Shown here piece after piece: positions 43,905 to 56,510 of a stretch of 64,000 bases of DNA. How positions within the stretch are numbered: the first letter of the stretch is position 1; the number at the start of each line of letters is the position of its first letter. Origin of the DNA: Oscillatoria sp. FACHB-1407 (GTDB taxonomy: Bacteria > Cyanobacteriota > Cyanobacteriia > Elainellales > Elainellaceae). A model generated the notes under the pieces. That model was not told where the DNA came from. It made no database searches and worked only from the letters and a program-made list of their open reading frames with translations. The stretch covers positions 186,001 to 250,000 of the forward strand of contig NZ_JACJSA010000003.1 in the NCBI RefSeq assembly GCF_014697545.1, given 5' to 3'. The translations under genes and the position numbers were made by a program.

Positions 43905-46900
43905 CTACAGATATTGTCGCAGTTGTTGTGCCAGGGTTTGTACATGGGGTTGTTGCAGCAGCGACAAATGATTGCCTGGAACGAGATGCACTTGAATGTC
44001 ATTTGCCAGGGTTCCCCATCCCAGGGTTGGGTCATGCCCTATCGCGTCGGGTTGTTCGGTGGCTTTAAACAATGTAATCCGCTGTGAGTAGGGCTGAGGT
44101 ACATAGCGATAAGCCGCCTGGGCGTTGGCATAGACTATGGGCAGGAGCGATCGCATGGCAGACTCATCCAGGAGTTGGAGGCGAGACTCTTCAGGGAGCA
44201 AATGGGCGATCGCCGACCACTGCCAGCGAGACAACCAGGAATTCAACGGTCGCAGTCGATTGACGGCAAGTGCTCCGTAATCCAGGAGAAAGGGCAACGT
44301 AGACCAGAGAGCAGTGCCCAACAGGAATTTGAGGTTTTGCCAAAAAGAGAGTTTGTTGACAGGCGCAGGTGTGTCTAAGATCGCGAGCAATGCGATCGGG
44401 TGTCCAGCTTGAGTGAGTTGTTGTGCCATTTCAAGGGCAACTAACCCACCAAATGACCATCCCCCCAGAAAATAGGGTCCCTCTGGCTGAAGGGTTTGAA
44501 TCGCTTGAAGATAGTAGGTGGCGATCGCCTCAATCCGGTTGAGTGGGGGCGATTGCCCATCCAACCCTAACGGTTGCAAACCATAAAAACTGCGGTTGCT
44601 TTGGGATTTTGTAGAAGAGCCATCGTTGGCTAAGTGATGCGCCAGTTCTAAATAAGGAAACACCACACCAAACATGGGATGCACACAAAAGAAGGGTTGT
44701 TTGCTATGACCCAGGGTCAGAGGGATCAGAGGCGATCGGGCGGTGAAGGGGGATGGGGGAACGGTGGAGTTTTGGATGTTGGATTGGGGATTTTGGGTTT
44801 CAGAGGACTCATTCCCCGGCGGATGGGAGTCCTGACCCAGCGTCGTTCCTGTCGCTAAGGGGAGATTAGATGTCAGTGTTTCCGGTTGGGGGTTTGATAA
44901 CATTGACCGTTTGCGCCGATAGGCAGCCCGATCCAGTCGAACGATGGGAGGAGCCTGGGGTGTTGCGATCGCATCTCGTAACGTTTCAAGGATGGGAGCC
45001 AGTTGGGCGATCGTCGGTGCCTCAAAGACGCTTTTTAACGGCAGTTCTAACTCAAAAGCATCGCGTATACGGGAGGTCATTTGGGTGGCTAACAAGGAGT
45101 GTCCACCTAACTCAAAAAAGTTATCGTGGATGTTTACGTGTTTGAGTTGGAGCAACTCTTTCCAGATGTCAACCAGAGTGGTTTCAGTGGGCGTTAATGG
45201 TGTGCTGGTGGGGGTTGACGCGGAAACCCAGTCGTCGCTGAAGGCGGGTAGGGCACGGCGATCGAGTTTGCCGCTAGCAGTAAGAGGCAGCGAAGCTAAT
45301 GGGATAAAGGTAGAAGGCACCATGTAATCGGGCAACGTTTGCCGTAGGTAGTGACGCAGTTGGGGGATGAGTTGGCGTGCAAAGTTGGATTGCAGCGGAT
45401 GATTGGTGAAACCAGGGAGAGAACTGGATATCCCCCAATCCCTTACTCGTTGAGGGTTTTTGACGCTAGGCTCAATATCTCTTCGAGTCAAAACCACATC
45501 ATAATCGCCTGTTTCTGGTTGGGTTGACCAGGTAATTTCGACGTGATAGGGCAACGTTGTTTCTAAATCCCACCAGTCTTGTGGATCAATGGCTAAATCT
45601 GTGAAATTTTGCAGATCCTCTCGCATTCGTCCAACAGTTTTAGGAGCATCTTTAGTTCGCAACCAGTTCGCAATTTTGACAGCTTTATGGACTCGGCTGT
45701 TTGTAATATTGGTAATCGTCCATCTCTCTGGTCTATGCTCAAGCAGTTTCGCTTGAATCTCTTTTACAGTGATTGGGTTTCGTTTCCAATGATGTTGCTG
45801 ATCGGGTTCTGGCAATCCCGAAAGTTCTAAGGATTCAGGAGTCCACGTCTGTAACAAGACGTTATAGCGGAATTGGGTCATTTCATTATGGCTGCGACCC
45901 CGTGAGAGACGAATTTGCACCTGCCCAATATTCTCAAAGCGATCGCGCAACATCTCAAAAAAGGCTGGGGCGATCGCCAGTTCAGGTTCTTCAAAGTGCG
46001 ATCGCTCTACCTGTTGCTGGAGTTGGTTTCGCTCTAAGTTGGCATCTGCCTGACAAAATCGCATCCAGCTATGAAAAGCAGTTAACAACGACAGATTTCG
46101 CACATCCCCAATGAATACCACACCTCCGGGTGTGACTGCCTGAAGTGCGCCTTCTAACACTTGCAGGAGGTAAGGTTGACTGGGGAAATACTGCACGATC
46201 GAGTTGAGAATGACGACATCAAATGATGCCAGATCAATGTCTTCAAAGTCGGTTGCCACTCGTTGCAACAGTTCCACATGAGGTAGATTCAGAGCACTCA
46301 ACTGATTCTGAATCGACTCTAGCGAAACACTCGAAAAGTCAGTCCCGACATACTTCTGACAATGTGGTGCAATTTGAAACAGTAACAGTCCAGTGCCACA
46401 ACCAATCTCTAAGACTCGTCTGGGGTTGAGCGCGAGGATCTGCTGGACGCGATCGCTCACCCACTCCTGCATCTGCTCTAAGGGAATGGGTTCTCCGGTG
46501 TAACTGCTGTTCCAACCTGTGGTGTTGAAGTGGGGCGTGGGGCGTGCGGTTTGACTGCGCTCACCGCTCAGGGAGTGGGGTGTGCGAGATTGATAGGTCT
46601 GGTTGTAGAGCGTTTGCCAGTGTTGAATCTGTTGATTTTGCAGAGAGGGCAGGAGGGTTTGTTGAAGGTGCTGCTGGTTAAGCGTGAAGTAAGTGATTAA
46701 ACGCTTCTCATTAGATGCTCCCTCTGATGCAATGACAACCGCATCTTGAATGGCGGGATGGCGTTGCACAGTGGCTTCGATTTCGCCTAATTCCACCCGA
46801 AATCCTCGAATCTTGACTTGATGATCGACTCGACCGAGAAACTCAATCGTGCCATCGGGGCGATATTGGGCGCGATCGCCTGTTTTGTAGACGAGTGTCG

Positions 46901-49727
46901 ATCCCTCCGCCTGTGGCACTTCCTCGATTGAAGGGGGCAAAGGGAGAGCCATAAACCGTTCTGCTGTTAACTCTGGACGATTGAGATAACCCTGCGCTAC
47001 CCCTGCACCGCCAATGTATAACTCGCCTGGAATGCCTGCGGGGAGAGGATTGAGATGAGCATCGAGAATGTAGACCTGGGTATTGAGGATGGGGCGACCT
47101 ATGATGAGAGGATTGTCACCGGGATGGAGTTCGGCAACGGTTGCCCAGATAGTGGTTTCGGTGGGCCCATAGGCATTGAAAAAGTGGCGATCCACTGCCC
47201 AGTGATCGACCACCTGGCTAGAGCAGGCTTCTCCCCCGGTAATCAATACCTGGAGGTCAGGAAGCTCCGCCGCCGGGAGAACTGCTAACGCCGCTGGAGT
47301 AATCAGGGCATGGGTAATGGCGTTTTCCTGTAAAAACTGCACCAGTGCCATTCCCGGTTGTTGGGCAGGTTTGGGAGGAATGTACAGCGTGCCACCAGAT
47401 CCTAATGCCAGAGCCATCTCAAAAATAGAAGCATCAAAACTGATAGAACTAAACTGCAAAATGCGACTGTGACGAGACAATTGAAAGACCTGCTGTTGCG
47501 CCGCAACAACGTTACACAAGCCCCGATGAGTGAGCAAAACTCCTTTTGGTGTGCCTGTGGAACCAGAGGTGTAGATGACGTAGGCGAGATGGTTCGGAGT
47601 AGTTGTCGTTCTACGAGCAGGGGGAAGGAGGGGGGAAGGAGCGGGGGATTGGTCTAACCGTAGGATTTGCGCCGACGATGTAGGGAGGTTCTCCACTAGC
47701 CAGGATTGCGTTAGCAGAATTGCAACCTGTGTATCGGTCAACATGAACTGGAGGCGATCGCTCGGATAGCTAGGATCAAGTGGGACATAGGCTCCTCCAG
47801 CTTTGAGAATGCCTAAAATCCCGATCACCATATCGGCAGAGCGATCGACACACAATCCCACCAGCGTGTTGGGTTGTACGCCCATCTGTTGCAACCTTTG
47901 CGCTAGATGTTCGGCTTGTTGGTTGAGGTCAGAGTAGGTGAGTGATCCCTGTTCTGTCACCAGGGCGATCGCCTCTGGATCTTGTTGTGCTTGTGCTTCA
48001 AAGATGTGATGGAAGCAGAGATTTGGGGTCGCTCCCACAAACTCCTGAAGCGGGGTTGTGAAGTTGTTTTCCTGCGTGAAGGGCGATCGCCCCCAGTTCA
48101 GCCAAATTTGCTGGTGTTCTGCGGGGGTGAGGAGTGGCAACTCCGACAATCGAGCGTCGGGATTGGCAACAATTCCTTGTAACAGGGTTTGGAAATGCCC
48201 GATGAGGCGACCGATGCGATCGCGATCAAACAAGTCCGTACTGTAGGCGATGAAGCCGCTCAAACCGTCTTGCGATCGCCACAGGCTTCGTAGTCCGTGG
48301 GCAGGTTCCCACAAATGTACTTCCAGGTCAAAGCGGGTACTACCGGACTCCAGCGGAGCAGGCTCTAGCATCAATTCCGGCAGTTCCAACGGTTGCATGG
48401 GAGCATTTTGCAGGGCAAAGGCAACTTGAAACAGAGGATTACGACTGAGATCGCGATCGGGGTCGAGTTCCTCAACCAACTTCTCAAACGGCAAGTCCTG
48501 ATGCTCATAGGCTGCCAATGCAACCTGCCGCACTCGCTCCAGCCATTCGCGAAAAGTAGGGTTTCCCGACAGGTCTGCTCGTAACACCAGACTGTTTACA
48601 AAAAAGCCAATTAGCCCCTCTAACTCGCTGCGGTGGCGGTTTGCAATGGGGGAGCCGATCGCCAGATCCGTCTGCCCCGTATAGCGATAGAGCAACGTCT
48701 GAAAGGCAGCTAGCAGGGTCATAAAGAGAGATGCTCCTGATTCCTGACTCAGAGCTTCCAATGTCTGCGTCAGAGCCGGAGCAATCTGCAATGGGAATGT
48801 TGCCCCGCGATAGGTCTGGACAGTTGATCGGGGGCGATCGCTTGGCAATTCCAATCCCGGCAAATCCCGTAGTTGTCTGCGCCAGTATGTCAATTGCTTC
48901 TCTAATATCTCCCCCTGTAACTGGTTGCGTTGCCAGTGTGCGAAGTCACTGTATTGAATGGGTAAAGGAGATAGTGTAGGCGATCGCCCCTCTATAAAAG
49001 CGGTGTAGTGAGTTGCCAGTTCTTGAATGAGGACTCCAAGTGACCAGCCATCAGCCACAATGTGGTGTAATGTGAGTAACAAAACTGAGTGAGTTGAGTC
49101 AAATTGCAACAACGTGATACGCAACAATCCATCAGTTTCTAAGTTAAACGGACGTTGTGCTTCAGCGGTTGCTAACTGCTGACTGATCCGTTCACGTTCG
49201 CTCACTGCAACGGTTTGCAAGTTGACGACCGTTAACTCAACGGTACGATTGGGCTCCACAATCTGGACAGGTTCTCCATCCAGGGTCGTAAAGCGGGTAC
49301 GAAGGGCAGCATGACGACGCACAATGGCTTGAAACGATCGCTCCAGTGCGGTTTGATCCAGATTGCCTGTTAAGCGAATGGCAGCGGGCACATTGTAAAA
49401 GGGGTTATCCGGTGCGAGTTGGTAGAGAAACCAGAGTCGCTGTTGGGCGAAGGAGAGGGGATGGGGGAGTAACGGGTTAGAGGGGTGAGGGAGTAGAGGG
49501 GTGATCGGCAAGATGCTGTTGTTTGCTGTTTTCCGATGCAGGTAGGCAACTAATTCGGCTTTGCGATCGCTCAAGGCTTGGCGCAATTCAGTTGTTAGGG
49601 TTCCGGTGGGAGCACTACAGCGTAAACGAATCTGATCCAAGGCAGTAGGGTCGTCTCCCTCGACAAAAACCTGCACGTCCAGACTTTTGAGATGGGAGAC
49701 AAATTCAGCAATGGATTGATGGGTCAT
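43905..49727 (-). CDS. NRPS module 2: docking-C-A(N-MT)-PCP-TE
   Basis: 1940 aa. Order: TubC-like docking domain (1-65), condensation (about 90-540, HHIVADG at 221-227), adenylation (about 570-1020; SGSTGTPKG 721-729, YKTGD, GFRVELGE) with an N-methyltransferase inserted before A10 (about 1080-1300; VLEIGCGTG 1105-1113, NEMTQFRYNVLL). The A domain resumes (GKLDRRAL 1486-1493), then a PCP (DNFFELGGHSLL, Ser1544), and a thioesterase (GGWSFGG Ser1758, Asp1785, His1920). By alignment the specificity line reads D-A-F-L-I-G-A-I-W-K; I cannot assign a substrate. It is the terminal module and releases the product. Its ATG overlaps the upstream NRPS stop (ATGA). Confidence 0.95.
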   Translation of the reverse strand: MTHQSIAEFVSHLKSLDVQVFVEGDDPTALDQIRLRCSAPTGTLTTELRQALSDRKAELVAYLHRKTANNSILPITPLLPHPSNPLLPHPLSFAQQRLWFLYQLAPDNPFYNVPAAIRLTGNLDQTALERSFQAIVRRHAALRTRFTTLDGEPVQIVEPNRTVELTVVNLQTVAVSERERISQQLATAEAQRPFNLETDGLLRITLLQFDSTHSVLLLTLHHIVADGWSLGVLIQELATHYTAFIEGRSPTLSPLPIQYSDFAHWQRNQLQGEILEKQLTYWRRQLRDLPGLELPSDRPRSTVQTYRGATFPLQIAPALTQTLEALSQESGASLFMTLLAAFQTLLYRYTGQTDLAIGSPIANRHRSELEGLIGFFVNSLVLRADLSGNPTFREWLERVRQVALAAYEHQDLPFEKLVEELDPDRDLSRNPLFQVAFALQNAPMQPLELPELMLEPAPLESGSTRFDLEVHLWEPAHGLRSLWRSQDGLSGFIAYSTDLFDRDRIGRLIGHFQTLLQGIVANPDARLSELPLLTPAEHQQIWLNWGRSPFTQENNFTTPLQEFVGATPNLCFHHIFEAQAQQDPEAIALVTEQGSLTYSDLNQQAEHLAQRLQQMGVQPNTLVGLCVDRSADMVIGILGILKAGGAYVPLDPSYPSDRLQFMLTDTQVAILLTQSWLVENLPTSSAQILRLDQSPAPSPLLPPARRTTTTPNHLAYVIYTSGSTGTPKGVLLTHRGLCNVVAAQQQVFQLSRHSRILQFSSISFDASIFEMALALGSGGTLYIPPKPAQQPGMALVQFLQENAITHALITPAALAVLPAAELPDLQVLITGGEACSSQVVDHWAVDRHFFNAYGPTETTIWATVAELHPGDNPLIIGRPILNTQVYILDAHLNPLPAGIPGELYIGGAGVAQGYLNRPELTAERFMALPLPPSIEEVPQAEGSTLVYKTGDRAQYRPDGTIEFLGRVDHQVKIRGFRVELGEIEATVQRHPAIQDAVVIASEGASNEKRLITYFTLNQQHLQQTLLPSLQNQQIQHWQTLYNQTYQSRTPHSLSGERSQTARPTPHFNTTGWNSSYTGEPIPLEQMQEWVSDRVQQILALNPRRVLEIGCGTGLLLFQIAPHCQKYVGTDFSSVSLESIQNQLSALNLPHVELLQRVATDFEDIDLASFDVVILNSIVQYFPSQPYLLQVLEGALQAVTPGGVVFIGDVRNLSLLTAFHSWMRFCQADANLERNQLQQQVERSHFEEPELAIAPAFFEMLRDRFENIGQVQIRLSRGRSHNEMTQFRYNVLLQTWTPESLELSGLPEPDQQHHWKRNPITVKEIQAKLLEHRPERWTITNITNSRVHKAVKIANWLRTKDAPKTVGRMREDLQNFTDLAIDPQDWWDLETTLPYHVEITWSTQPETGDYDVVLTRRDIEPSVKNPQRVRDWGISSSLPGFTNHPLQSNFARQLIPQLRHYLRQTLPDYMVPSTFIPLASLPLTASGKLDRRALPAFSDDWVSASTPTSTPLTPTETTLVDIWKELLQLKHVNIHDNFFELGGHSLLATQMTSRIRDAFELELPLKSVFEAPTIAQLAPILETLRDAIATPQAPPIVRLDRAAYRRKRSMLSNPQPETLTSNLPLATGTTLGQDSHPPGNESSETQNPQSNIQNSTVPPSPFTARSPLIPLTLGHSKQPFFCVHPMFGVVFPYLELAHHLANDGSSTKSQSNRSFYGLQPLGLDGQSPPLNRIEAIATYYLQAIQTLQPEGPYFLGGWSFGGLVALEMAQQLTQAGHPIALLAILDTPAPVNKLSFWQNLKFLLGTALWSTLPFLLDYGALAVNRLRPLNSWLSRWQWSAIAHLLPEESRLQLLDESAMRSLLPIVYANAQAAYRYVPQPYSQRITLFKATEQPDAIGHDPTLGWGTLANDIQVHLVPGNHLSLLQQPHVQTLAQQLRQYL
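44769..44796 (-). repeat. Heptanucleotide repeat in the PCP-TE linker
   Basis: Four 7-nt units in a row on the plus strand: GTTTTGG, ATGTTGG, ATTGGGG, ATTTTGG. On the coding strand they read as the STRR-type repeat (CCAAAAT) and encode ETQNPQSNIQNS in frame, in the low-complexity stretch between PCP and thioesterase. Confidence 0.8.
46531..46590 (-). repeat. Heptamer-like repeats at the adenylation-methyltransferase junction
   Basis: TGGGGCG occurs twice in tandem (46531-46544) followed by TGCGGTT, then GGGAGTGGGG near 46571. They lie in the linker that encodes SGERSQTARPTPHFNTT, just before the methyltransferase. They look like another heptamer (STRR-type) insertion, more decayed. Confidence 0.55.
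49452..49503 (-). repeat. G-rich imperfect repeat after docking domain
   Basis: GAGGGGATGGGGGAGTA and GAGGGGTGAGGGAGTA are an imperfect direct repeat. On the coding strand they give the doubled peptide NPLLPHP just before the condensation domain. The composition and position match the other linker repeats. Confidence 0.55.
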
Positions 49728-52700
49728 ACCTCTACTTCCTCACGTTGATGCCATTCCGATGCTTGCCCGTTCACCCCTGCCGGGGGCAGGTCTGATTCCG
49801 CAGACGGCACCGTTGCTTGATGGAATGTAGTCATCACCTGTGCGAGTTCTGCAATTGTGGGTGTTTCAAACACTTTGCGGAGTGGGAGTTCTACTTGAAA
49901 GCGATCGCGAATGCGTGAGACGAGTTGCGTTGCCAGCAGAGAATGTCCCCCCAGTTCAAAGAAATTGTCGTGAATCCCAACGTGCGATCGCCCCAGGAGT
50001 TGCGTCCAGAGGTCAACCAGAGCCGCTTCCAAAGATGTGGTCGGGGCAGCGGTTGAGTGAGTGATTTGGGGGGTGCTCAGATCTGGTAACGGCAAGGCTT
50101 TCTGATCAACCTTGCCATTGGCAGTCAGCGGCAACGTATCCAGCACCACAAACGCAGCAGGCACCATATAGATTGGCAATTTCGCTTTGAGAAACGATCG
50201 CAAATCTCGCTCTGTCGGTTCCATCAATTGGTTAGGAACAATGTAGGCGATCAACTGCCGTTCCCCGTCTATTTCACGGACAACGACTACGGCTGTTTGG
50301 ATCATCGGATGTTGGGCGATCGCCAGTTCAATCTCACCCAACTCCACCCGAAATCCTCGAATCTTGATTTGGTGATCCGTCCGTCCTAAAAACTCTAGAT
50401 TACCGTCAGTTCGGTAAAGTGCGCGATCGCCTGTTTTGTAAAGTGAGGGAGTGGGGAGTGGGGAGTCGGGAGCCGAAGAGATAGCCGACGGCTTGGTTTC
50501 ATGTCCTCTTTCCCATGCCCCACGCTCTAAAATAAATCGTTCTGCGGTTAAGTCTGGACGGTTTAGATAGCCCTTTGCCAACCCATCGCCGCCTAGATAA
50601 ATTTCACCGATGGCTCCAGGCGGAACTGGCTTCAGGTGAGCATCTAATACATAGACCTGGGTGTTGGCGATCGCCTGACCAATGGGAATTGTCGTTGCAT
50701 TTTCTGGAATTGTTTGCACGTCGTACCAGGTAGAGAAAGTTGTATTTTCAGTAGGACCATACACATGCAGTAAGTGTTGAGGTTTGCCGCAACGAAGTAT
50801 GGTACGAATGCGATCGACTGTGACTGCCTCACCCCCAAATAGTAAATATTTGAGTGTTTTAAATGCAGTGGGAATATGGCTAACGGTCTGATTGAGTAAT
50901 GCGGTTGTGAGAAACAAAATTGTAATGGTGTGTGTCTCCAGTGCTGTGACAAAATCAGTGGAGGAAAGGGTCGTTTCCCGGTCAATTCCAACGAGTTGAG
51001 CCCCATTCAACAGTGCCCCCCACACTTCAAATGTGGCTGCATCAAAGGCAAGATTTGCCACCTGAGCGATGCGATCGCTCGGTTCAATCTGGATGTAGTT
51101 GGTGTTGCAGACCAACCGAACGACGGCTTGATGCGGCACCATGACCCCTTTGGGTGTTCCAGTGGAACCGGACGTGTAAATCACGTAGGCAAGCTGATCT
51201 GCCGTGCAGGGAGTAGATAAGTTCTCATCAGACTCCTGTGTAATGTCGCTCCACGACTCTTCCAGACAGACGATTTGTGTGGTTTCTGTTTGCAGGGAAT
51301 CTGCCCACTCTGCCTGCGTCAGAACTACTGTAATTCCGGCATCCTCTACCATGAAGCGGAGTCGCTCTGGGGGATAGCTCGGATCAAACGGCACATAAGC
51401 ACCCCCTGCTTTGAGAATGGCTAACATGGCGGCGATCGCCTCCACACCTCGCTCCAAACAAACACCGACGGGCATTTCAGTAGTAACGCCTAACCGTTGT
51501 AGATACCGCGCCAGTTGGTTACTCCCCTGGTTTAACTGCTGATAAGTAAAGGCTCGATGGTTGAATTGAGTTGCGATTGCATTTGGGTGTTGTTGTACCT
51601 GCGCTTCAAACAACTGATGAATACAAGCCTCAACAGGATAGCTCGATCGGGGATTCTGCCACTGCTGTAACAACGTTTGTTGTTCCTCCGGGGTCAATAA
51701 CGGCAGTGCTGAGAGAGGCGTTTTGGGATGGGCGACAATTCCCTCCAACAGGGTTTGAAAATGCTGCCGCAGTGAGGCGATCGCCTCTGCACTAAACAAA
51801 GCCGTGTTGTACACAATCACGCCGCGCAAGCCATCCGACTGCTGCCAACCCTTGCCCCACAGGCTTCTAAAGTTATCCGCGCATTTCCACAGATAAAGCT
51901 CCAGATCAAAACGTGCCGTCTGAGTTTCTAACTCCACAGGACTCAGAACGAGTCCCGGTAAGGTGAGTTGCTCGATGGGCGTATTTTGCAGTGCAAAGAC
52001 CACCTGAAACAATGGATTTTGTCCAAGATTGCGAACAGGTTGCAACTCCTCTACTAACTTCTCAAAGGGCAAATCCTGGTGAGCATATGCTGCTAGAGTG
52101 ACATCTCGTACTCGCTCTAACAACTCAATAAAGCTGGGATCACCCGACAAATCGGTTCGCAACACCAAACTGTTAACTAGAAACCCGATCAAGCCCTCCA
52201 GTTCACTGCGGTGTCGATTGGCAATGGGGGAACCGATCGCCAGATCAGTCTGTCCGGTATAACGATGCAGCAATGCCTGAAACGCGGCTAACAGCGTCAT
52301 AAAGAGGGTTACGCCTGCCTGTTGGCTCAAGTCCTCCAGCGCATCCAACAATTGCTGCGGTAACTCTAACAACTGGCTGGCTCCCTGATGACTGGGTAGA
52401 GACGGGCGAACCGCAGAACCCGGTAGATCGAGCACTGGGATGTCCTGTAACTGCTGCTTCCAGTAACGCAACTGACCATTCAACACCTCGCCCTGCAACC
52501 ACTGCCGCTGCCAATGGGCAAAATCGGCATACTGAATCGGCAACTCTGGCAAAGCGATCGCTCTACCTTCTACGAACGCGGCATACCGTTCGCCCAACTC
52601 CCGAATCAGCACCCCACTCGACCATTCATCAAAAATGATGTGGTGCAGAGCCAGCAGCAATAGATGTTCCGCGTCTTGCAGTTGCCACACTTGCACCCGA

Positions 52701-53092
52701 AAGAGTGGTCCTTGATTTAACTGAAATGGGTGCTGAATCGACTGCCAAATCTGATCCAATGCAGCAGATTCGCGATCGCCAACAGGCCGTTCTCGTAGGT
52801 CGGTAAACGTGAGCGGTGCCAATACTTCGGGGGCAATCACCTGAACTAACTGCCCTTCTACAACATCAAATGTCGTTCGCAAGCTTTCATGACGCTGGAC
52901 GATCGCCTGAAAACTATGATGCAGGTGCGATCGCTGAAGTGAGCCTGTGAGCCGAAAAACCAGGGGAATGATGTATAGAGCATCGCCAGGTAACAGTTGC
53001 TCGATGAACCACAAGCGTTGCTGAGCAAAGGATGCCGGAAAGATAAAAACCTCTTCCTCAACCTGCTCCTGATTCGGTTTGTCTGAAATCAT
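49724..53092 (-). CDS. NRPS module 1: C-A-PCP
   Basis: 1122 aa. Condensation domain (about 15-455; HHIIFDE at 150-156, where the usual last Gly is Glu), adenylation domain (about 490-1000; SGSTGTPKG 641-649, YKTGDR, GFRVELGE, GKVDQKAL), PCP (DNFFELGGHSLL, Ser1051). By alignment to GrsA the specificity line reads D-A-F-F-L-G-V-T-F-K, which resembles codes for Val/Ile-type residues. No loading module precedes it, so the first C domain may take an acyl group or be idle. The insertion of a heptamer repeat at 50444-50471 lies between the A-domain subregions (before YKTGDR). It overlaps the next NRPS by 4 nt. Confidence 0.95.
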   Translation of the reverse strand: MISDKPNQEQVEEEVFIFPASFAQQRLWFIEQLLPGDALYIIPLVFRLTGSLQRSHLHHSFQAIVQRHESLRTTFDVVEGQLVQVIAPEVLAPLTFTDLRERPVGDRESAALDQIWQSIQHPFQLNQGPLFRVQVWQLQDAEHLLLLALHHIIFDEWSSGVLIRELGERYAAFVEGRAIALPELPIQYADFAHWQRQWLQGEVLNGQLRYWKQQLQDIPVLDLPGSAVRPSLPSHQGASQLLELPQQLLDALEDLSQQAGVTLFMTLLAAFQALLHRYTGQTDLAIGSPIANRHRSELEGLIGFLVNSLVLRTDLSGDPSFIELLERVRDVTLAAYAHQDLPFEKLVEELQPVRNLGQNPLFQVVFALQNTPIEQLTLPGLVLSPVELETQTARFDLELYLWKCADNFRSLWGKGWQQSDGLRGVIVYNTALFSAEAIASLRQHFQTLLEGIVAHPKTPLSALPLLTPEEQQTLLQQWQNPRSSYPVEACIHQLFEAQVQQHPNAIATQFNHRAFTYQQLNQGSNQLARYLQRLGVTTEMPVGVCLERGVEAIAAMLAILKAGGAYVPFDPSYPPERLRFMVEDAGITVVLTQAEWADSLQTETTQIVCLEESWSDITQESDENLSTPCTADQLAYVIYTSGSTGTPKGVMVPHQAVVRLVCNTNYIQIEPSDRIAQVANLAFDAATFEVWGALLNGAQLVGIDRETTLSSTDFVTALETHTITILFLTTALLNQTVSHIPTAFKTLKYLLFGGEAVTVDRIRTILRCGKPQHLLHVYGPTENTTFSTWYDVQTIPENATTIPIGQAIANTQVYVLDAHLKPVPPGAIGEIYLGGDGLAKGYLNRPDLTAERFILERGAWERGHETKPSAISSAPDSPLPTPSLYKTGDRALYRTDGNLEFLGRTDHQIKIRGFRVELGEIELAIAQHPMIQTAVVVVREIDGERQLIAYIVPNQLMEPTERDLRSFLKAKLPIYMVPAAFVVLDTLPLTANGKVDQKALPLPDLSTPQITHSTAAPTTSLEAALVDLWTQLLGRSHVGIHDNFFELGGHSLLATQLVSRIRDRFQVELPLRKVFETPTIAELAQVMTTFHQATVPSAESDLPPAGVNGQASEWHQREEVEV
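50444..50471 (-). repeat. Heptanucleotide repeat inside the NRPS adenylation domain
   Basis: TGAGGGA followed by GTGGGGA twice and GTCGGGA (plus strand). In frame it encodes the Pro/Ser stretch SAPDSPLPTPSL within a ~25-aa insertion between ERF and YKTGDR. Same repeat style as 61893-61913. Confidence 0.8.
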
Positions 53093-54338: not shown

Positions 54339-56510
54339 TTAAACATTAATATTCGCGATTGAATGATCATCCATATGAGCAAACAACTTAACTAGCCGAT
54401 CGCGACGATTTGAGCTGAACCATCCATCTTCTTTACCTGCCCAAAGACAACTAGGAAGATGTCCTTCCGGGGCTTTTTCAAAGTCATACTCAAACCGATC
54501 AGAACGTCGCCAATTATAGTTTCCATCTTTGTCACGAATTCGCCACCCAGTTTGATTACCAAATTTATCTCGGATATCCCAAGTATCCTCATCACCTAGT
54601 TGGCGGTAAATTTTTCTCTGAACACTAAAGCCAAATTTAGAATTACTATGTTCAATCCATAGTTTATCGAGTGTGTTTAGATCAGTGCGAGGGATAAATT
54701 TAATAATAGAGTCATGTAATTCAGATAATGGTTCATCTTCTTCAATGGAAACATCTATTTCAATCATCCTCTTAACAAGATCATCTGCATCATCTGCATC
54801 TTCTAAAAACTTTAAGACTGAAAGTCGTGCTGCTTCGCACATAATTTTAGCTGTTTCTTTATCAGCTTTTTTCCAATCCTTTTCTGATAAAAATTTTCTC
54901 AATTCACTAAAGTCTATACCAACAGAAGAATCTTCTACTAAAGCTTTGAATTTGTCATTCTCGCGAATGCAGCCAAATCGAGCATCATTTTGAATCTTTT
55001 CTTGTGTTTCCTTAAGATTTAGATTTAATGCATTCTTTAAGCTCGTGAGTACTTGATCTAAATCCTCAATTAATGCTGCACATGTAGCTTTTGTATACCA
55101 TGCCTCAAAGTTTTCAGAATCAAGTGTAACAGCTATATCACATGCTTTAACTGCTTCATCGTAACGTCCTAATTCACATAACGATTGGCTCTTACTAAGC
55201 CAAGCAGAATAATTATGAGAACTAATTTGAATTGTATGATCATAGGACAAAATAGCTTCTTCATGCTGCCCTAACTTTTGCAACGCATTCCCTTTATTTT
55301 GCCACGCTTCAAGATAGCTTCTATCAATATAAATTGCTTTATTAAAGGATTGAATTGCTTCTCTATAAGAATTCAATTCATACAATGCATATCCTTTCAA
55401 GTTCCAAGCAATTGCAGAGATAGGATTAAGTTCAATTGCGCGATCGCAACTTGTAATTGCTTCTTTATAATTCTTGTTCCATAAATACTCAATAGACTTC
55501 TTACATAAATCTTCTGCCTGGTGAAGGATTGAGTAAGAAGTTAATTGAATATTTTGAGCTTGAAGAATTAGCTGAGAAATCATATCATATGCAACTCTTC
55601 TTACAGACTCCCACTCTTGATAGACCTTCTCTCTAGCTTTTTCATATTTCTCAAGAATTATTTGATTCTCTTGCTTTTGTTTATCACTATCAAAAAAAAC
55701 ATTTACACCACCTATTGCTGCTCCAATAAGACCTCCACCTCGTATAAAGTTATTGAATGCACCTTTGCCTACCTCAATTAATGTATCTTTTTCTGAAAAA
55801 TCAGTTTCTAATAAATTCTGCGTGGCTTTATGAAGTTGCTTAATGGCTGAATTTACACCCGAAAAATCACTACTAGAAATTCCAAAGAAAAGAGCAGAAA
55901 TTTTATTTCTATCAAGCTCAAAATTAAACGTATCTACCAAGGTTGTTATTTTATTTTCCAACTTACTAAAAACTGCTCTTAAATCAATTTCTAAATCATC
56001 TAAAAAGTCTTCTGCGACTTCATGAATGGTTTTTTCATCTTCCTCTTCAAGTCTATTAAGAATAGGTTCATTAAAACTGGCTCTCAGTGTTTCATAAATT
56101 TGATTCGAGATTTGTTCTATGTCTGCTTCTACACCTGAATTTATATCCTTGGATAAAACTGTATCTATCTCATGTGAAGCGGAGCCATGAGAATCACTGG
56201 ATGTCTTACTTCCACTTGAGATTAAGATAATCTCTTGATGCCACTCTGGGAAATCTTCACCTATTTGCTTACCATATACTTTTGCCTTGTCGATTTCCGT
56301 AATGCCCAGTTTGTTTAAGCCGTCTTGAATAAAGGTGATACAAGCTTGCTTTGATGGAAGTTTTGCTGCTTCTAATAAAATCTGCAAATAATGATCCTTA
56401 AGAGCAACTTTGGCAGTGATGCCTTTGGGTTGCAGTTGGCGATTCATCAGAGCTGCGATCGCCTTGGGGTTGCCTTGCTTAGCGAGTTCTAGCAGATTAG
56501 GTTGTGTCAT
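54339..56510 (-). CDS. TPR-GUN4 multidomain protein
   Basis: 723 aa. N-terminal domain (1-97, LLELAKQGNPKAIAALMNRQLQPKGITAK) is one that recurs fused to various domains in cyanobacteria. A helical region with a Gly-rich hydrophobic stretch (257-273, GGGLIGAAIGGVNVFF) follows. TPR repeats fill about 335-505, and a GUN4 domain about 533-712 (WKKADKETAKIMCEAA, LWIEHSNSKFGFSVQRKIYRQLG, PEGHLPSCLW). GUN4 domains bind Mg-protoporphyrin in chelatase regulation, but GUN4 fused to signalling domains is common in cyanobacteria and may have other ligands. The gene is AT-rich and sits in the tRNA islet. Confidence 0.9.
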   Translation of the reverse strand: MTQPNLLELAKQGNPKAIAALMNRQLQPKGITAKVALKDHYLQILLEAAKLPSKQACITFIQDGLNKLGITEIDKAKVYGKQIGEDFPEWHQEIILISSGSKTSSDSHGSASHEIDTVLSKDINSGVEADIEQISNQIYETLRASFNEPILNRLEEEDEKTIHEVAEDFLDDLEIDLRAVFSKLENKITTLVDTFNFELDRNKISALFFGISSSDFSGVNSAIKQLHKATQNLLETDFSEKDTLIEVGKGAFNNFIRGGGLIGAAIGGVNVFFDSDKQKQENQIILEKYEKAREKVYQEWESVRRVAYDMISQLILQAQNIQLTSYSILHQAEDLCKKSIEYLWNKNYKEAITSCDRAIELNPISAIAWNLKGYALYELNSYREAIQSFNKAIYIDRSYLEAWQNKGNALQKLGQHEEAILSYDHTIQISSHNYSAWLSKSQSLCELGRYDEAVKACDIAVTLDSENFEAWYTKATCAALIEDLDQVLTSLKNALNLNLKETQEKIQNDARFGCIRENDKFKALVEDSSVGIDFSELRKFLSEKDWKKADKETAKIMCEAARLSVLKFLEDADDADDLVKRMIEIDVSIEEDEPLSELHDSIIKFIPRTDLNTLDKLWIEHSNSKFGFSVQRKIYRQLGDEDTWDIRDKFGNQTGWRIRDKDGNYNWRRSDRFEYDFEKAPEGHLPSCLWAGKEDGWFSSNRRDRLVKLFAHMDDHSIANINV

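Follow-up and report, generated by a model that had tools for sequence, protein, structure and literature searches.

The window, a 64,000-nucleotide stretch of the genome of Oscillatoria sp. FACHB-1407, contains two overlapping NRPS genes that together span 9.2 kb (Table 1). The earlier note on this DNA had described a two-gene NRPS of the order C-A-PCP followed by docking-C-A(N-MT)-PCP-TE. Both open reading frames were found where it had placed them, and the Pfam domains agree with that order: Condensation, AMP-binding, AMP-binding_C, and PP-binding in NRPS1, and TubC_N, Condensation, AMP-binding, Methyltransf_12, PP-binding, and Thioesterase in NRPS2. The 4-base ATGA overlap that it had reported can be read directly at the junction of the two genes, GAGGTATGACC. 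Its statement that all core catalytic motifs are intact was confirmed in both proteins (HHIIFDE, HHIVADG, TSGSTG, and YKTGD, together with LGGHSL in both carriers, LEIGCGTG in the methyltransferase, and GWSFG in the thioesterase), with the qualification that C1 carries an HHxxxDE variant. With C, A, and PCP core motifs intact in each module, the pair is a type I modular NRPS by sequence, and the PF00975 match and GWSFG motif at the C-terminus of NRPS2 provide the terminal release domain, consistent with the predicted release of the peptide by a type I TE.

Table 1. Features of the two-gene NRPS locus, in window positions
Feature	Position	Strand	Remarks
NRPS1, 1122 aa, C-A-PCP, module 1	49724..53092	-	orthologues ~60-76% identity
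C1 condensation domain, LCL-type by tree	51668..53041	-	motif HHIIFDE at 52625-52645
A1 adenylation domain	50093..51610	-	code DAFFLGVTFK (Ile/Val)
PCP1	49838..50023	-	LGGHSL
C-terminal docking peptide REEVEV (SLiM), final six residues of NRPS1	49727..49744	-	
NRPS2, 1940 aa, docking-C-A(N-MT)-PCP-TE, module 2	43905..49727	-	
TubC_N (beta-hairpin) docking domain	49539..49715	-	PF18563, E = 2.4e-13
C2 condensation domain	48108..49463	-	HHIVADG
A2 adenylation domain, N-terminal part	46638..48005	-	code DAFLIGAIWK, Lys from 45258-45374
N-methyltransferase inserted in A2	45408..46580	-	LEIGCGTG; PF08242 E = 3e-18
A2 C-terminal part, after methyltransferase	45258..45374	-	LPLTASGKLD
PCP2	45000..45182	-	LGGHSL
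Type I thioesterase	43929..44699	-	GWSFG nucleophile elbow; PF00975 E = 3.5e-31; PDB matches to NRPS TEs

Specificity codes were read by alignment to the ten Stachelhaus positions, which returned DAFFLGVTFK for A1, the same line of residues that had been read before, and DAFLIGAIWK for A2. Published assignments of the A1 code to Ile/Val (PMC2533009) and to Ile (PMC13122637) agree with the earlier expectation of a Val/Ile-like first residue, a prediction that follows from the code. Neither the A2 code nor its variants occurred in the literature searched, and short fragments of it gave unrelated matches only. The A2 code agrees with the PheA code for Phe at I299, A322, and I330, and these common positions hint that the residue may be aromatic. 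The methyltransferase embedded in A2, with its intact LEIGCGTG motif, supports the earlier prediction of a second residue that is N-methylated, and module 2 as a whole predicts an N-methylated bulky hydrophobic residue.

To place these genes within their genome, we searched the source assembly (8.13 Mb in 66 contigs, reported 100% complete) for further NRPS parts. A family search of the full assembly returned two Condensation matches, one in each of NRPS1 and NRPS2. Because there is no other Condensation domain, these two genes make up the entire peptide-forming line, and a third module at another place in the source genome was rejected. No PPTase or transporter was evident by eye among the neighbouring open reading frames. 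The suggestion that the PPTase is encoded elsewhere was supported, as a single Sfp/HetI-like (ACPS/Sfp-family) gene, of the kind needed by a type I NRPS, lies outside the window (G000:C7:309967). The remaining carriers in the genome are found in an A-MT-T-reductase protein, in an A-T-TE protein, and in a PKS-reductase, or occur as small ACPs. The first is a stand-alone A-MT-PCP-reductase on contig C6 (L156:6407-10621, minus strand; 1404 aa, code DLFTNALTYK, no C domain) with an N-methylated amino aldehyde or alcohol as its predicted product, and the second is a stand-alone A-PCP-TE on the same contig (L157:6235-8976, minus strand; 913 aa, unusual code). The PKS protein on contig C20 (L158) has the order KS-AT-KR-ACP-reductase, has a separate AMP-binding protein nearby, and belongs to a set of genes that look similar to heterocyst-glycolipid-type genes.

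The pair is a conserved orphan NRPS family rather than the oddity of a single genome. Scanning one genome per species, we found full-length NRPS2 relatives, the majority with 60-71% identity, in the genera Phormidesmis, Nodosilinea, Oculatella, Elainella, Leptolyngbya, and others, with N1 directly upstream wherever the contig extends that far. An orthologous module 2 was present in 57 of the 390 sampled genomes of the cyanobacterial class, a count judged by hand on identity (roughly ≥45%, partial matches included). Full-length orthologues at ~57-76% identity occurred in some 20 genomes, and dN/dS was ~0.1 (0.08-0.16) for both genes, although pairs that include the window copy have dS near saturation; together, these two results exclude chance. 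Elsewhere, the NRPS genes were interrupted or split in two genomes (L206 in G376; L166/L031 in G105), through decay or assembly error, indicating that the pathway is dispensable. The A1 code recurred in nearly all relatives and DAF[LI][IV]GAIWK in every two-gene copy, in a tally where some genomes count twice because they are present in two collections. This is a complete minimal NRPS kept across many cyanobacterial families, and its near-fixed codes suggest a single conserved product that serves a steady function, not a weapon that varies. Literature searches on Leptolyngbya, Nodosilinea, and Oculatella turned up no relevant account of an orphan family, and no matching product or cluster was found in the literature searched, in line with the earlier remark that no described product fits. 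The family is thus real, intact, and conserved, undescribed as far as we searched, and ordinary in its enzymology.

Two forms of the assembly line were found among the relatives. The two-gene form carries its TE on N2, whereas the three-gene form (L034, L045, L137-L139, L141, L142, L146-L150) carries it on an added C-A-T-TE gene with the code DAFT[IV]AA[VI]WK. Both forms share the same N1, an N2 that is orthologous in docking-C-A-MT-T, the same docking pair, and in some cases the same hydrolase (described below), but A2 of some three-gene copies has the Leu-like code DAWFLGNVVK, which occurs in two published papers. The A3 codes did not occur in the literature searched, which also yielded no product for the three-gene orthologues, and we know of none. 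Some three-gene relatives have intervening genes or lack a gene at the locus (L143, L145, L147). A tree of the A-MT region placed the two-gene form nested among three-gene copies, which favours loss of module 3, so the two-gene form probably derives from a three-gene tripeptide form in which module 3 was lost and module 2 gained a TE. This may have happened once or more than once, because a copy of each form (L155, two-gene; L141, three-gene) sits at the base of this tree.

Module order could be read from one relative (G118), where N1 and N2 are fused into a single 2984-aa open reading frame that lacks a docking domain between them, which is direct proof that N1 precedes N2. The three-gene, two-gene, and fused forms thus offer a natural series for the study of assembly-line shortening. 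Where the genes are separate, the N1 C-terminus follows the consensus REE[VI][ED][LF] in nearly all family members. This charged peptide on NRPS1 and the PF18563 domain on NRPS2 form a predicted SLiM/beta-hairpin docking pair, a type described in PMC9113145.

The motif of the first condensation domain is HHxxxDE rather than the textbook HHxxxDG, a variant conserved in the family, and HHI[IV]FDEWS is invariant in C1 of the two-gene form. We rejected HHxxxDE as a diagnostic of capping C domains, as it occurs in internal C domains elsewhere too. In a tree, C1, C2, and C3 grouped in a single clade (support 1.0) that neighbours cyanobacterial LCL domains, whereas the presumed starter domains and the DCL domains lay far away. 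The tree distance of C1 was 3.4-3.9 to a low-scoring first-domain clade and from 1.1 to internal C domains, where the first-domain clade holds starters by position rather than by known product and the set is without characterised cyanobacterial Cs. Among solved structures, C1 was much closer to the C domains of teixobactin, DhbF-type, and tyrocidine synthetases than to lipopeptide starters, with best matches at 240-340 bits vs 50-100 for the presumed starter C domains of the CDA, rhizomide-type, and surfactin systems. A lipopeptide starter (Cs) identity for C1 was therefore rejected on its grouping with LCL domains. The dN/dS of C1 (0.081) was the same as that of C2 (0.087) and below those of both A domains and the methyltransferase, so C1 appears to be in use.

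This constraint bears on the earlier claim of a dipeptide-sized product of two residues. The two modules and their order stand, but a C1 that is as constrained as C2 allows an N-terminal cap, and a free dipeptide is therefore not assured. The simplest reading of the constraint is that C1 works and that the N-terminus would be capped from a donor supplied in trans. By contrast, in a reading that follows the dipeptide-sized product of the earlier note, the product would be an uncapped N-methylated dipeptide, Ile/Val-(N-Me)Xaa, or the corresponding diketopiperazine, and C1 would be a relic or a structural partner of A1; a C domain can persist as the structural partner of its own A domain. We regard this as a real possibility, though one that falls short of even odds. 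It is favoured by the LCL type of C1, which is not that of a starter, and by the genome, where neither an upstream carrier nor an acyl donor was identified for C1. The other carriers sit in the A-MT-T-reductase, A-T-TE, and PKS proteins, and the first two of these are unlikely donors, given that they end in a reductase and a TE, respectively. In one relative (G020), an additional A-MT-T gene lies immediately upstream of N1. An upstream partner for C1 is thus possible in that lineage, and the window's C1 may derive from an internal elongation domain whose upstream module has been lost. Against the bare dipeptide stand the equal dN/dS of C1 and C2 and the invariant C1 motif, which is unexpected for a relic. 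This same relative has a four-gene form (L150/L176), in which the A-MT-T gene is a loading module, and a HetI-like PPTase gene lies near the cluster.

The earlier note had also stated that no tailoring gene is adjacent. This holds within the window, but across the class an alpha/beta hydrolase (371 aa, GHSMG elbow, hydrophobic segments near the N-terminus) is linked to the NRPS or co-occurs with it. In 11 genomes, with two- and three-gene forms alike, the NRPS has this gene no more than a few kb away, in different positions and orientations, and we found no other conserved neighbour at the two-gene locus. The source genome has its copy on another contig (G000:C6:264187-265326, 78% identity), not linked to the NRPS, and this copy retains both the GHSMG elbow and the hydrophobic N-terminal segments. 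The stand-alone A-PCP-TE gene on this contig is ~11-14 kb from the hydrolase. With presence defined as ≥60% identity, 41 of the 43 hydrolase-bearing genomes had the NRPS, and the hydrolase was found in 2 of the 333 genomes without it (Fisher p = 8e-40, a value inflated by ancestry). The corresponding comparison within the window's family gave 12/18 vs 1/18 (p = 3e-4). Still, 16 of the 57 NRPS-bearing genomes had no hydrolase at this cut-off, including two high-completeness close relatives (G152 and G173), so the hydrolase is either not indispensable or replaced.

These absences, the patchiness of both genes, and the inflation of the global test could be taken to mean that the association reflects shared ancestry or chance linkage, with no functional meaning. 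We consider this rather improbable, because the two genes are adjacent in 11 genomes with both architectures and varied arrangements, because three genera of the window's family (g5, g8, and g10) each hold members with both genes and members with neither, and because, broad ABC-type ATPases aside, the hydrolase has no other recurrent neighbour in different lineages. The membrane-anchored hydrolase is probably a third pathway gene, and the best candidate outside the window, though one that cluster-bound mining would overlook in the source genome.

Taken together, we propose, with a probability of about 0.7, that the locus encodes a two-module type I NRPS, complete and functional, whose product is a small peptide built on the core Ile/Val-(N-Me)Xaa, where Xaa would be bulky, hydrophobic, and possibly aromatic, with a capping and a hydrolase part to the pathway. 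The domains, codes, module order, docking pair, constraint, and hydrolase co-occurrence on which this proposal draws were all read from sequence. NRPS1 would load Ile/Val onto PCP1 and dock through its C-terminal REEVEV on the TubC_N domain of NRPS2, which would load Xaa and methylate its amine with the A-embedded methyltransferase. C2 would then join both residues and the TE would free the product, while C1 probably adds a cap to the Ile/Val amine from an acyl or aminoacyl donor that is provided in trans, and the hydrolase on C6 probably acts on the released product. We infer these substrate identities, the capping, and the hydrolase action, as well as the form of release, which may be linear, a diketopiperazine, or another ring. 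More tentatively, the family may represent undescribed, widespread N-methylated cyanobacterial peptides, whose line was shortened from tri- to dipeptide, whose LCL-type C1 (HHxxxDE) was recruited for capping in trans, and whose dedicated membrane-anchored hydrolase lies in or out of the cluster.

Iterating TEs are established in other NRPSs, such as that of gramicidin S, and the TE core residues here are intact, so the TE might instead link two dipeptides head-to-tail into a cyclic tetrapeptide, (Ile/Val-NMe-Xaa)2, that is not dipeptide-sized. This outcome seems quite unlikely, given that no sequence feature indicates iteration, that the best solved TE match (4zxh) comes from an NRPS whose product is not known, and that the conserved C1 suggests a blocked amine, which would stop such cyclisation. 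That the two genes belong to a larger line with further modules elsewhere in the genome, as the three-gene relatives with their intervening or missing genes might suggest, is very improbable, because a genome reported as complete has no third Condensation domain and NRPS2 bears its own TE, which NRPS2 of the three-gene form does not. The points worth following are the conservation, the constrained C1, and the hydrolase link, in an NRPS pair small enough for expression as a whole.

By architecture and description, the pair resembles the rhabdopeptide/xenortide-type (RXP) NRPSs of Xenorhabdus and Photorhabdus, which make small nonpolar peptides (Val, Leu, Phe), often N-methylated, on two to three single-module C-A(-MT)-T subunits with SLiM/beta-hairpin docking (PMC9872161, PMC9113145). 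Every module opens with a C domain in both systems, the first included. However, RXP lines iterate their modules and end in a C domain that adds an amine, whereas the window's line ends in a type I TE, has its methyltransferase only in module 2, and has no N-terminal docking domain on module 1 for self-loading. With this TE, and with only two C domains encoded in its genome, it is not a rhabdopeptide/xenortide-type system. The cyanopeptolin and aeruginosin/suomilide synthetases are likewise cyanobacterial NRPSs with the Ile/Val code DAFFLGVTFK, but they are large multi-module lines of unrelated architecture with tailoring genes. The window's pair, with two modules only and none of these tailoring genes among the neighbouring open reading frames, does not belong to either cluster type. 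Just upstream of NRPS1, a 723-aa open reading frame with TPR-like repeats (54339-56510, minus strand) sits in a stretch of low GC content (0.344 vs ~0.50) and may be a recent insertion.
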